NCBI GenBank assembly: GCA_034440135.1
Contig: JAWXBP010000502.1
Span: 1 to 35,200, forward strand
DNA from: Planctomycetia bacterium
GTDB lineage: Bacteria; Planctomycetota; Planctomycetia; Pirellulales; JALHLM01
Direction: 5' to 3'
DNA: 35,200 bases
The stretch's first letter is position 1; every line of letters begins with the position of its first letter. Positions 29,387 through 35,200 of the stretch are shown here, piece after piece. Made by a program: the position numbers and the translations under genes. Below the pieces are notes generated by a model, which was not told the origin of the DNA, ran no database searches, and worked only from the letters and a program-made list of their open reading frames with translations.

Positions 29387-29656
29387 GTGCACTCACGGGA
29401 CCGCAATCCAATGACGGCTGGCGGAGCGGTACGGATGATTGCCAATAGGCTGAACGGAGAGGACAGGATTCGAACAAGTACGAAAAACACGGCGAAAATG
29501 TGGGTTTCCCATGAACGCGGCGCAGAATCCGGCGCAGTTGACTCGCGAATTGACGATTTGGACCTTCGATTGGCGGCCATCATTGACGCATGGCAGACAT
29601 TGCCCGAGGCCGTGCGAGATCAAATCCTCGCCCTAGTTCGCGACGTGGCCACCTAG
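29387..29656 (+). pseudogene. Short ORF with recombinase-associated C-terminal tail, probably a remnant
   Basis: The 89-codon frame reads through an antisense tRNA-end-like sequence (giving GEDRIRTSTKN) and ends DLRLAAIIDAWQTLPEAVRDQILALV. From memory, tails of this type (acidic run, then x-I-x-A-W-x-T-L-P-E-A-x-R-x-x-I-L-A-x-V) recur in planctomycete ORFs near site-specific recombinases. No recombinase catalytic residues are present, so at most this is a tail left from an integration module. A related but shorter tail (LLEAVRGRIVDLVQ) precedes the second repeat at about 31570. Apart from this ORF and the repeat at 29606, the 829-base gap from 29219 to 30047 shows no gene I can support. Confidence 0.4.
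29456..29475 (-). other. tRNA 3'-end-like fragment (candidate attachment-site relic)
   Basis: GGAGAGGACAGGATTCGAAC on the plus strand is the reverse complement of a T-loop followed by an acceptor-stem 3' half (TTCGAATCCTGTCCTCTCC). The T-stem pairs only partly and no D-arm, anticodon arm or 5' acceptor half is found at higher coordinates, so there is no complete tRNA gene. Integrases often target and duplicate exactly this part of a tRNA. Confidence 0.45.
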
Positions 29657-29880
29657 CGTCGGAGTAAGCGGTGCCGGAGTAAGCCCCCTGGCGTGGCGTA
29701 GGGCGGCCGGAGAGGCTCTCCAGCGGGCGATACGCACAACTGTAGAGACTTCGACGGCCGACATCCCGACGCCGCCAGCCGGCCCACCCCGGGGGGTACG
29801 CGCCCCCAAATCAAGTCGGTGCCATTCGTATGGGCGTATCAGAGGTTTTTCAATTTTTGCGGTATAGGTACTTCGCCGCC
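29606..29880 (+). repeat. Direct repeat, copy A, upstream of the toxin-like gene
   Basis: This segment aligns by eye with 31571-31850. Shared anchors in order are GAGGC-GTGCG, CTAGTTC, GTCGGAGT, AGGGCGGCCGG, GGCCCACCCCGGGGG and CCCAAATC, with variable sequence between them. It contains GGCCGG/CCGGCC pairing possibilities and a long T-rich end (29851-29866). Boundaries are approximate. Confidence 0.65.
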
Positions 29881-30047: not shown

Positions 30048-31490
30048 ATGTCCCACACGGAAACGTACCATCGGACGTTCTTGCCGGACGGACCGTTCGA
30101 GAGCTTCGAGTCAGCGCACGGAAGAAAAGAAAAGAAGGTCCAGTGGCCGGACTTTGGTCCCCAGCAGCCGAGTCAGTTTCCCAATTTTCCGCAGAATCAA
30201 GTCACACCTCCCAAAACTCCGGCTGGATACCAGCCAATTAAGCCCTTTCCGGCCCAAAATCCTCAACCGGCGGTGAATCCGTACCCGGCACCTACCGGAA
30301 AGCCTTACTTGCGCACACAAGGACGATTTCGGATCATCCAGACGGATGGCGCAGGTTCATACAACGAAATCTGGGTCGTCGAAAAAGAGGATCAGAAATT
30401 CAATACCGTGGCCACCCCCTGGGAACAAGTCAACAGCAAACTGCTGCCGGGAGGACATACATTCGATCCGGTCGTCAACAAAAACCTTACAGTCGTTGGT
30501 TACGTCGGCGCTGTGTACGACAACCACATTTACGTTCCCAGTAGCTCCAAAGAGATCATTGAGAAGTTCCCCGACTTGGATCAGAACGTAGAGACGTTTC
30601 CTGAGTCGCACTTCGTGGCAGCTTTTCAGCAGCCTGGCTTTCGACAATGGGGCACATGGGACCCAAAAGAGTTGTGGTTCGTGGCGACCGACCCCGATGG
30701 TCACATCACGGCCGCCGAACACTTGGGCGGAACCAGCAATGCCGAGTCGGTGGCGAATCCGGATATTCGTTTCCTATTGCGTGTCCTCCCCGCGCTCCTC
30801 GGGAAACTGGTGCTGGTGGTCGGCACCGTAGGTGGCAAGCGGTTGCTGACGCGACTCGCCCGCCGGCGCGGGATGAACGCCTCCACCACAGGTGGCTCAT
30901 CCGGCGGCAGACGAGGTGGTGGCATTCCCGGGGGTCCAGGCGCGATGGGAGGCAAGGCCGGCAAATTAACGGGAACTCCAGTTCATCATCCCAAGGTGAC
31001 GGGGAGCATCGGGTCCACCGATGCGGAAGCGATTGCTCGCGAAAGGGAAGCGATGATGCGTTATGCGGATTCAGGCAATGTAAAACACGTTTGGATGGAC
31101 GATGCCGCTCGTCCGAAATTCGGCGTAGCCGCGCATGGCGAGAAGTACCCCGACGTGACGGCTGAATTTAACAACGGAACCTGGGGGCTCGCCGAAGGCA
31201 AGGGAACGGATGTCACCAAGATGATCCAGCAGTTCGAGCGAGCAGGCCGAGTTCCAGAACTGACGGGAAAGATCGCCCGTCAAGAAGTTGTGGTGCAGCG
31301 GCTGAAGCCCCTTACTCATCCTGATGGTGGCACGTTTCAGATGGTAGGCCCCAATTTCGCCACTGGCAAGGAATATGGTTGGGCGTTGATGGACGTATCA
31401 TCGCTGCCGGCGAAGCCTTTGATCGTCAATGGCATTCCGATCAAGGTGATCGTTATGGGAATTCCTGAATCTCAAGGCCTGAGACCATAA
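30048..31490 (+). CDS. Candidate polymorphic-toxin-like protein with C-terminal PD-(D/E)XK-like domain
   Basis: Encodes 480 residues. An N-terminal Pro/Gln/Asn-rich linker (about 33-85) leads into a predicted beta-rich region (about 88-225), a hydrophobic segment (about 241-268, LLRVLPALLGKLVLVVGTVGG) with a basic flank, a Gly/Ser-rich hinge (about 281-310) and a C-terminal domain from about 320. In that domain YPDVTAEF (PD at 368-369), then WGLAEGKGTD (E383, K385), matches the spacing of the PD-(D/E)XK nuclease core. The multi-part layout with a glycine hinge before a small terminal domain is that of secreted toxins, but no signal peptide, RHS repeats or neighbouring immunity gene is visible. 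GGAG lies 8 bases before ATG 30048. It could instead be a non-toxic structural protein; the nuclease call rests on motifs only. Confidence 0.6.
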   Translation: MSHTETYHRTFLPDGPFESFESAHGRKEKKVQWPDFGPQQPSQFPNFPQNQVTPPKTPAGYQPIKPFPAQNPQPAVNPYPAPTGKPYLRTQGRFRIIQTDGAGSYNEIWVVEKEDQKFNTVATPWEQVNSKLLPGGHTFDPVVNKNLTVVGYVGAVYDNHIYVPSSSKEIIEKFPDLDQNVETFPESHFVAAFQQPGFRQWGTWDPKELWFVATDPDGHITAAEHLGGTSNAESVANPDIRFLLRVLPALLGKLVLVVGTVGGKRLLTRLARRRGMNASTTGGSSGGRRGGGIPGGPGAMGGKAGKLTGTPVHHPKVTGSIGSTDAEAIAREREAMMRYADSGNVKHVWMDDAARPKFGVAAHGEKYPDVTAEFNNGTWGLAEGKGTDVTKMIQQFERAGRVPELTGKIARQEVVVQRLKPLTHPDGGTFQMVGPNFATGKEYGWALMDVSSLPAKPLIVNGIPIKVIVMGIPESQGLRP

Positions 31491-31570: not shown

Positions 31571-31850
31571 GAGGCTGTGCGGGGTCGGATCGTCGATCTA
31601 GTTCAGAATGCGCCCACCCATCCGTCGGAGTGAGGGTGGCCTCTGTTGGCACCCAGCGTGACGCAGGGCGGCCGGGGGAGCAGACAGCGGCATTCGCGGT
31701 CCCACCGACTCGTCCGCCCTGTCAATCGACGACAGAGGCCACGCGACGGCCCACCCCGGGGGCAGGCCCCCCAAATCGTTATGCCCTTATTTGTATGTTC
31801 GGGTCGCCGAGTTTTTTGTTTTTTCGGAATTGCGACCAACCCAACGGCCA
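31571..31850 (+). repeat. Direct repeat, copy B, downstream of the toxin-like gene
   Basis: Second copy of the repeat at 29606, with the same anchors (GAGGC-GTGCG, CTAGTTC, GTCGGAGT, AGGGCGGCCGG, GGCCCACCCCGGGGG, CCCAAATC) and a T-rich end near 31812-31824. It is in the same orientation, so the pair brackets 30048-31490 as direct repeats. A 31-codon frame from 31539 runs into it. The rest of 31491-31958 shows no supported gene. Confidence 0.65.
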
Positions 31851-31958: not shown

Positions 31959-33167
31959 ATGCGAGTGGCGTTTGCGCTGTGCGCTTTGATGGTTGTGTCG
32001 ACGCTCATTGAGACCCGGGCAGCGTCAATCGTCGCCGTAGGGCCACTGGACCGAGACACGGTTACGGAGCTGTTTGGCATCTCTGCCGACGGCAGCGTCG
32101 TGGCCGGACGCAGTTGGCGGGGCAGCGGCACCTCACGTGCCGTGCGATGGACTGCTGCAACTGGTACGCTCGCGTTGCCGGACACTCCCCAAGGCGCAGT
32201 CGCATATGCTGTGTCCGGCGACGGGAACTACATCGTAGGTCATACAGGAGACGACCACGGTTTTCGTTGGAGCGCGGCGAGTGAAATTGAGATCGTTGGC
32301 GGAGCCTTCGCGTACGCTGCTTCCTATAACGGATCGGTTGTAGTCGGAAGTACAATCGGGCCGGATCGGCGTGCGTTTCGGTGGTCCGAGGCTGACGGCC
32401 TCCAAGACCTCGGCAACTCACGCGCGACTGGCGTTTCGGCAGACGGCACGATCGTCGTCGGCCAAACTACCACGCCAGCCGGCGGCTTCTTTCGCTGGAC
32501 GGCGGAAGGAGGCGGCGTGGAACTTGGCCTGGGCATCGCCCAAGCTATTTCTGCCGACGGCACAACCATAGTTGGCGGTGGCGCAGGGAATGCCTTCGTG
32601 TGGACGGAGGCTGATGGGATTAGGTCGATCGGCGGCAACGTCGCTTATGCTGTTAATGCCGACGGTTCGGTCATTGTTGGTGAGGGAAAAGACGCCTTCG
32701 GCGATTGGCATGCAACGTTGATCCATTCTCGATTGGGTTCGCGCGATCTCGTGGACGTGTTGCGATGCCAAGGCGGAAACGTAGCTGGCTGGAATCTGAA
32801 TGAGGCAACCGGCGTTTCCGCCGATGGCCTGACGATCGTGGGCAATGGCACCGACCCCGGGGGCAATCGATACGGCTGGGTCGCTCAACTGGACCCGATT
32901 GCACATCCGGGCGACGCGGATGGCAATGGAAAGGTCGACATCAACGACTTGAACCTCGTCCGCAACAACTTCGGATCGGAAGGCGCTCCCGTGCTGGGCG
33001 ACACGGACTACGATTGTGGCGTCACGATTGACGATTTAAACGCCGTTCGGAATAACTTTGGTTGGGTGGAAGTGCGACAAGTGCCAGAGCCATCATCTTT
33101 CGCTGCAATGCTCTGTTGCCTCTCAGTTTTTGGCTTCTATTTCCATCTTCGTCGGGGGAGCGCGTAA
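31959..33167 (+). CDS. Exported HAF-repeat protein with dockerin-like repeats and PEP-CTERM anchor
   Basis: Encodes 402 residues with a signal peptide (MRVAFALCALMVVSTLIETRA). About six to seven repeats of the type ISADGSVVAGRS, VSGDGNYIVGHT and VSADGTIVVGQT, each followed by a beta strand ending in RW, form a probable beta-propeller of the HAF type. Near residue 315 come two dockerin-like calcium blocks (VDINDLNLVRNNFG and VTIDDLNAVRNNFG), closely related to those of the giant protein. The C-terminus VPEPSSFAAMLCCLSVFGFY plus Arg-rich end is a PEP-CTERM signal, implying exosortase-dependent sorting to the cell surface. The HD-domain gene starts 2 bases after its stop codon. Ligand and role are unknown. 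Confidence 0.85.
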   Translation: MRVAFALCALMVVSTLIETRAASIVAVGPLDRDTVTELFGISADGSVVAGRSWRGSGTSRAVRWTAATGTLALPDTPQGAVAYAVSGDGNYIVGHTGDDHGFRWSAASEIEIVGGAFAYAASYNGSVVVGSTIGPDRRAFRWSEADGLQDLGNSRATGVSADGTIVVGQTTTPAGGFFRWTAEGGGVELGLGIAQAISADGTTIVGGGAGNAFVWTEADGIRSIGGNVAYAVNADGSVIVGEGKDAFGDWHATLIHSRLGSRDLVDVLRCQGGNVAGWNLNEATGVSADGLTIVGNGTDPGGNRYGWVAQLDPIAHPGDADGNGKVDINDLNLVRNNFGSEGAPVLGDTDYDCGVTIDDLNAVRNNFGWVEVRQVPEPSSFAAMLCCLSVFGFYFHLRRGSA

Positions 33168-33169
33168 CG

Positions 33170-35200
33170 GTGGCCAAATCATTCTCAATGCTCCTGGAGG
33201 AGATCGATCCCTCAGTTTTGGCGTCTGCGCGCGAATCACTTCATCATGCGAGAACTTTGTCATCCTACACTCCGGCTTCATTCCCGAGTGGCACTGATCA
33301 TAGCCCTCAGCATACAGATGCTGTGGATGAACATGCTGGAATGCTTTGTGCGGCCGGACTCATTCAGGAACTAAACGATGCGGAGCGCTATCTGTTATTG
33401 CTTGCGTGTCATTTTCACGACCTGGGAATGGTGGGCACTGAAGAGGAGAGTGCAACCTCGGCGGGTCAAGAATCCATTCGTCGCCAACATTCTGTTCGTA
33501 TCGGGGAACGAATCAAGGCCGAATGGCAGGCCTTTAAGCTGAAGTCGCAGCCTTACGCTGAGGCGCTGGCTCTGACATGCCGTGGTCACAGACCCGAACG
33601 GGATGCAAATGGTGAGCCGACGTGGGCTGACCTTCCTGAGCTTTTGACGTTAGGGCGAAATGAAACCGTTCGCCCAAGACTGTTGTCGGCCATCCTATTT
33701 GCGGCGGACGAGCTTCACATCGGTGATGACCGTGCAAGCCATCAGGTGGAGCAGTATCGCGAGATTCGAAGCAAGACTGCGAAAGTCCACTGGGCTCGCC
33801 ACCAAGCAATCAGAGGCCCCGATCTAGTGGCCGGCCAACTGCGGTTCTCGGTGCAGGTGGATACTCCGGAACAAGAAGAAGACTTGCGTCGGAATGTCAT
33901 TCGGAAGGCCGGGCAGGCTTTATGGGCACTGCAAAAGGAGGTCACTGCACACGAGCTAAACATTGCCCTGCCGAGATTGGTTTTGACGTGGAATCGCGAC
34001 AAATGTCTTTGTCTGTGTCTTTGGATGCAATTGATGTCATTGCTCGCACAATCACGAGACGAATTGGAGAGCACGCTCACCACCAATTATGTCGCACATG
34101 TGGCTTCGTGCCCGGATATCACTGATTTTGCGTCGGATACTGATTCCGAAGAACGCGCCATCGCAGCGGCTTGTAAACGCATCGTGAGCGACGCCTTCTC
34201 CCTGGGGATCGTCGAGGCACCGGCTGAATCCAAGGTACAAGTGCGAAAAGACTCCCAAGACGTGCGAAAAGTGATTCAGGCAGGCATGTGTGAAGCAGAC
34301 GCGTCAAATGTACATTTCTGCATTTCGACTGCGAAAACGTATTCGATTGCACTGTTTGAGAGTGAGCTTGGGCAGTACTGGATTAGACACTTCGTATACC
34401 CGAGCGTGCGCGCGACATACTCCCTTCAACACACCTCAACGGCGTTCGAAGACCAGGTCACGACTCTATTGCAAGTGTCGCCCACTGCTTGTCAACTGGT
34501 GGAAACTCTCTCGCCCGCCCGTTCGCTCCTTGCAAAGCCAGAGCTGCTCGAATCGCTAGTGATGAGTGGCATCCTAATGGATTTGTCTGACAACTCTGAA
34601 ATCGTGCTGACCCCAAGTGTGCGTCACGCCTTTCGGCTTCTGGCAACTCGTGTGACAATGTCGTTGCCGCAAATAACGTACTTCATCGAAGAGCACGCGC
34701 TAATGAGAGGTTTCTCCTTCAAGGAAGTCACAGAGTTGCTCACAGAAGACTTTGCGAAAAGGCCCACCCAAGTGGCCGGAGGAAAGCACATTTCTATGGT
34801 CGAAATCGCTGATACTCCACCGGCCTTTCCGGCGATTCAATCGCCTTACATCATCGCCGCCAGCCTTCGCTCTCGTGTGGGTATAGCTCTCGTCGGCGAG
34901 CCAAACAAGTTCGATATTACCGTAGAGTCCGACAGCGACGCGGAGTCGAACGCATCGATTACTTCACATTCAATTCTAATTACACCGCAAGTAGGAAATG
35001 GCCAGCTCCTTTTCGCTCACGGTCGGATTCGCATTGATGTAGTGTCGCGGTCAATGACCTTTATCGCGGCAGAACCCGGAAGCGCGGAGTGCGAGGAATG
35101 TCCATATTTCTTGCGAATTGACGGGATGAGGCAAGGCGCGCCCTCGAACTTCACTATTCGCTCTAGATTGACGCATGTCACAGTGGTCGATGCACTTGAA
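33170..35200 (+). CDS. Large HD-domain protein resembling HD-CE conflict-system proteins (3' end beyond window)
   Basis: An open frame of 677 codons runs from GTG 33170 to the window end without a stop; ATG 33188 is an alternative start. The first 190 residues hold an HD phosphohydrolase-like domain: H48 in PQHTDAV, H83-D84 in CHFHDLGM, H107 in RRQHSVR, H140 in CRGHRPERD and D180 in LFAADELHIGDDR. The order HDLGM, R-x-x-H-x-x-R, C-x-G-H-R-P-E and ADELxIxxDR resembles the HD-CE family associated with bacterial conflict proteins. Residues about 195-330 are mainly helical; about 440-510 look winged-helix-like (LVETLSPARSLLAKPELLES), and the end (about 585-677) is strand-rich. I recognise no ATPase or nuclease in the visible part. 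It is translationally close to the HAF gene, and its codon use (many act, gaa, gta, cta, agt) is less GC-rich than the rest. Confidence 0.7.
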   Translation, partial: MAKSFSMLLEEIDPSVLASARESLHHARTLSSYTPASFPSGTDHSPQHTDAVDEHAGMLCAAGLIQELNDAERYLLLLACHFHDLGMVGTEEESATSAGQESIRRQHSVRIGERIKAEWQAFKLKSQPYAEALALTCRGHRPERDANGEPTWADLPELLTLGRNETVRPRLLSAILFAADELHIGDDRASHQVEQYREIRSKTAKVHWARHQAIRGPDLVAGQLRFSVQVDTPEQEEDLRRNVIRKAGQALWALQKEVTAHELNIALPRLVLTWNRDKCLCLCLWMQLMSLLAQSRDELESTLTTNYVAHVASCPDITDFASDTDSEERAIAAACKRIVSDAFSLGIVEAPAESKVQVRKDSQDVRKVIQAGMCEADASNVHFCISTAKTYSIALFESELGQYWIRHFVYPSVRATYSLQHTSTAFEDQVTTLLQVSPTACQLVETLSPARSLLAKPELLESLVMSGILMDLSDNSEIVLTPSVRHAFRLLATRVTMSLPQITYFIEEHALMRGFSFKEVTELLTEDFAKRPTQVAGGKHISMVEIADTPPAFPAIQSPYIIAASLRSRVGIALVGEPNKFDITVESDSDAESNASITSHSILITPQVGNGQLLFAHGRIRIDVVSRSMTFIAAEPGSAECEECPYFLRIDGMRQGAPSNFTIRSRLTHVTVVDALE

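Follow-up and report, generated by a model that had tools for sequence, protein, structure and literature searches.

The gene at the right end of the analyzed DNA (here called the window; 35,200 bases, the entire contig G000:C502) encodes an HD-CE phosphohydrolase with what looks like built-in control, and its product is probably a self-contained phage defense effector. The best reading of this protein is a rare HD-CE variant. It shares the domain of the HD-CE family (Pfam PF24391) far above the cutoff, with all conserved histidine and aspartate positions, but its C-terminal partner is neither a STAND/NACHT module, an Hsp90-like ATPase, nor any other Pfam family. The HD-CE immune effector itself has already been described, in recent work. 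What sets this protein apart is the C-terminal part, which is common to two proteins only and has no recognizable ATPase.

Extent of the gene at the contig end

The features that make up the gene, and the gene that precedes it, are as follows.

31959 to 33167, + strand: preceding gene, 402 amino acids (context; outside the proposed system)
33154 to 33160, + strand: Shine-Dalgarno-like GGGGGAG before the GTG start, read from the sequence
33170 to 35200, + strand: HD-CE protein gene; GTG start, 677 amino acids present, truncated at the 3' end where the contig stops
33281 to 33886, + strand: HD-CE phosphohydrolase domain (Pfam PF24391 match, E value of 8.7e-33)
33956 to 35200, + strand: C-terminal region, residues 263 to 677, without a known domain and conserved with the relative at L081 up to the contig end

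The frame opened by the GTG at 33170, 2 bases past the stop of the preceding gene on the same strand, is free of stops for 677 codons, up to the last base of both contig and window (35200). The contig stops at this base, and its last 22 bases occur only once in the assembly; the gene is thus truncated by the end of the contig, and there is no candidate contig to join to it. A search of the other contigs of the assembly, run without a positive control, revealed no continuation of the missing 3' end. Conservation with the full-length relative at L081 (954 amino acids) continues to the end of the window, which makes the C-terminal region part of the protein and predicts that the window copy lacks about 280 residues; this one relative suggests a full product of approximately 950 amino acids.

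The truncation, together with the lack of a detected continuation, would also fit a decayed or misassembled contig-end remnant that has no function. We consider this explanation very unlikely, given the 677 stop-free codons, the presence of all putative catalytic residues, and the collinear conservation with the relative at 28% identity.

HD-CE domain and putative catalytic residues

The family assignment proposed in the first-pass annotation was borne out by the profile search, in which PF24391 matched residues 37 to 238 counted from the second codon (38 to 239 from the GTG at 33170) with 114.6 bits against a cutoff of 27 bits. No ordinary metabolic HD hydrolase, the competing assignment, fitted better: the plain Pfam HD model reached 16.8 bits, under its own cutoff of 22, no metabolic HD hydrolase among the NCBIfam models matched the protein, and no dGTPase family model matched it in Pfam or NCBIfam. 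The related iHD-CE model was not among its Pfam matches. Matches to RPA_interact_C, acpS, and RNase J were under the cutoff or near chance and were dropped.

All of the HD motifs quoted earlier for this protein (HTDAV, HDLGM, RxxHxxR, CxGHRPE, and ADELxIxxDR) are present in it, at H48, H83-D84, R104xxH107, C137xGH140RPE, and D180 through R188. All 12 aligned HD-CE proteins have the same residue at eight positions (H44, H48, H83, D84, H107, H140, D180, and R188), and the catalytic domain with its putative metal ligands therefore looks intact. The presence of H107 and H140 beside the classical H-HD-D set resembles the pattern of two-metal HD phosphodiesterases. Since these two histidines recall such phosphodiesterases as much as dNTPases, the putative substrate may be a dNTP or NTP or, alternatively, another phosphodiester.

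C-terminal region and its single full-length relative

The C-terminal region had no Pfam match above the cutoff, either in the window protein or in the 954-amino-acid relative, and no PADLOC or PDB match; no recognizable sensor domain was found in it. A low-confidence AlphaFold model built for just the window protein (mean pLDDT of 36) depicts residues 263 to 677 as mostly helical up to about residue 530 and strand rich from about residue 560.

Relatives were searched for in overlapping sets of 147, 392, 398, 382, and 149 genomes of the phylum. Across these several hundred genomes, only one full-length relative was found, on contig G563:C8 (L081) of a genome from another family of the same class. 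It matches the window protein collinearly over 664 residues (28% identity, E value of 2e-76), and among the genomes searched, the C-terminal region is common to these two proteins only. Weak C-terminal matches in G107, G592, G676, G573, G628, and others were dropped, as a profile built from the two C-terminal regions did not match them. No relative was found in the phages, plasmids, and viral contigs searched. The contig scan beyond the phylum relied on patterns derived from one protein, that of the window, so that distant relatives there could escape it; a match at L018 (Balneolaceae) was a chance hit to the stretch QITYFIEEH inside an unrelated 571-amino-acid gene.

The G563:C8 gene has a GC content of 44%, compared with approximately 53% in its surroundings. 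It is flanked on one side by a pirin-like gene (read by eye) and a tRNA synthetase gene and on the other by genes for a DEAD-box helicase, an ECF sigma factor, and a kinase. No defense gene was recognized within about 7 to 10 kb; the relative stands alone among housekeeping genes, with no island around it.

Genomic neighborhood in the window

The different codon use ascribed to the gene at the outset was confirmed. It has the most deviant codon use of the 18 window genes scored, with a GC3 of 0.55 and a codon score of -0.18, compared with a GC3 of 0.71 to 0.85 and scores of +0.12 to +0.36 for the 15 upstream genes; the two genes directly preceding it also deviate (GC3 of 0.62 to 0.63). The stretch from about 29.6 kb onward looks foreign by codon use, and the composition of the HD-CE gene is atypical in both hosts (the window genome and G563).

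The toxin-like neighbor flanked by repeats, another feature of the first-pass annotation, was likewise found. It is a 480-amino-acid open reading frame without known domains (30048 to 31490, + strand) with a direct repeat of about 200 bases on either side (29655 to 29850 and 31608 to 31820). The two repeat copies have diverged, and their 15-base core, GGCCCACCCCGGGGG, is found at no other place in the genome. Two related genomes have matches to the N-terminal part of this frame (31% identity over residues 5 to 253 in G009 and 40% over residues 106 to 165 in G036; L095 and L096) and none to its C-terminal part, a layout like that of polymorphic toxins with an exchangeable end. The 402-amino-acid gene that follows, immediately before the HD-CE gene, contains HAF repeats, dockerin-like repeats (by eye), and a PEP-CTERM-like tail just under the Pfam cutoff. 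Dozens of DNA copies similar to its dockerin-like repeat segment (32900 to 33060) are present genome-wide.

The earlier proposal that the HD-CE gene begins a defense island found no support. The contig ends within the gene, and no defense gene was recognized upstream in the window, where the two preceding genes were assessed by profile matches and the others by eye. An island or multigene operon whose ATPase, nuclease, or receptor genes lie beyond the contig end is an unlikely explanation, with some evidence in its favor: codon use is deviant in all three genes that lie beyond about 30 kb, and elsewhere in the phylum, some HD-CE genes have close partners on the same strand (a 912-amino-acid gene at L059 and a KaiC-like ATPase gene at L060) or lie inside a type I restriction region (L057). 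However, the upstream window genes encode ribosomal proteins and a desaturase (both read by eye), the secreted HAF/PEP-CTERM protein, and the toxin-like product, and the sole protein that shares this C-terminal region is encoded at the lone-gene locus described above, with a helicase gene after it and housekeeping genes before it.

The tight spacing and shared strand with the HAF/dockerin/PEP-CTERM gene raise another alternative, namely, that the product is a nonimmune regulator that acts on a signaling nucleotide, as a phosphodiesterase or a phosphohydrolase, and is perhaps coexpressed with that secreted protein. Consistent with this role, H107 and H140 are conserved in the manner of two-metal HD phosphodiesterases, and two relatives have weak PDEase_I matches. 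We nevertheless regard it as improbable: HD-CE scores above every other HD family, the G563:C8 relative has no such upstream gene, and the sporadic presence and low GC of this type of HD-CE gene suggest horizontal transfer and speak against a core regulator.

HD-CE proteins elsewhere in the phylum

The HD-CE concept reportedly goes back to Nicastro et al. in 2023, who are said to have described immune effectors that target or degrade nucleotides. About a dozen strong HD-CE domains were detected in 392 genomes of the phylum; weaker matches, in proteins near 500 to 560 amino acids, were left out as probable members of other HD families. Six of these proteins and one fusion with iHD-CE have the following architectures.

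L049 and L050: HD-CE with an Hsp90-like ATPase (HATPase)
L052 and L054: HD-CE with NA-iREase1 and NACHT
L053 and L055: HD-CE with STAND and TPR
L056: caspase-iHD-CE fusion

The protein at L054 (4775 to 8740) has 1,321 amino acids and combines HD-CE, NA-iREase1, NACHT, pentapeptide, and WD40 segments, and that at L056 (7041 to 11252) is a caspase/iHD-CE/wHTH-HSP90_Na protein of 1,403 amino acids. At L057 (7652 to 13477), the HD-CE gene lies between genes for an ORC-CDC6-like ATPase and a type I HsdR-like protein. The HD-CE gene at L059 (5013 to 8992) has a four-base overlap with its 912-amino-acid neighbor, which lacks a Pfam match, and the pair may form a two-gene system; the one at L060 adjoins its KaiC-like ATPase gene. 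These settings are typical of conflict systems and give a defense role for the HD-CE domain a good foundation. For the window protein, we infer a defense role from its family.

The PADLOC profile RT_UG24, which represents a defense reverse transcriptase (DRT), matches the HD-CE domains of several proteins with its positions from about 680 to 912 and matches the window protein weakly; the profile thus appears to contain an HD-CE-type domain. This segment is what the window protein has in common with RT_UG24; it has no reverse transcriptase domain, and PADLOC gave no full match for it.

HD-CE proteins had been noted at first as often fused or linked to ATPases. This link stands for several HD-CE relatives in the phylum but not for the window protein: neither its 677 amino acids nor the 954-amino-acid relative contains a Pfam ATPase, a P-loop motif (G4GK[ST]), or a Bergerat motif (DxGxG). 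Like the HD-CE-NACHT/STAND and HD-CE-HATPase proteins (L049, L050, and L052 to L055), the window protein joins an N-terminal HD-CE domain and a long C-terminal region in one polypeptide; unlike in those proteins, no NTP-binding switch was recognized in it or in its relative.

Proposed mode of action

We propose that the gene product is a metal-dependent HD-CE phosphohydrolase whose N-terminal domain, once switched on, probably hydrolyzes free nucleotides or a nucleotide-type signal. The long C-terminal region would hold the enzyme off and sense a trigger, for instance an altered nucleotide pool or a product of the phage. Once active, the enzyme would deplete nucleotides and halt phage growth, which would be costly to the cell. 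Sensing and control would apparently reside within one polypeptide without an NTPase switch, unlike in most HD-CE proteins encountered here.

The likely mode, in which the hydrolase stays silent until the C-terminal region perceives a trigger, is drawn by analogy with CloA and other HD-type anti-phage dNTPases (PMC12265719). HD dNTPases defend against phages, and the activity of CloA of the Clover system is gated by nucleotides (PMC12265719). The window protein would resemble CloA and SpdGTPase (PMC12265719) as an HD superfamily hydrolase with an N-terminal HD domain and a C-terminal control region that is hypothesized to work similarly; it differs from them in lacking a dGTPase family match, in having the additional conserved H107 and H140, and in that no adjacent NTase gene was seen.

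A stricter version of this proposal is that the gene is a stand-alone, single-gene immune effector, an HD-CE hydrolase under a sensor or regulatory region of about 680 amino acids and of an undescribed kind, with neither an NTPase switch nor a partner gene. We advance this version only tentatively. If the defense role is wrong, the protein would add one more ordinary member to a domain family that is already known. If the compact version is true, this single-gene form of HD-CE would lend itself to expression and would reveal how an enzyme of this type is triggered when it has no STAND or Hsp90-like switch.
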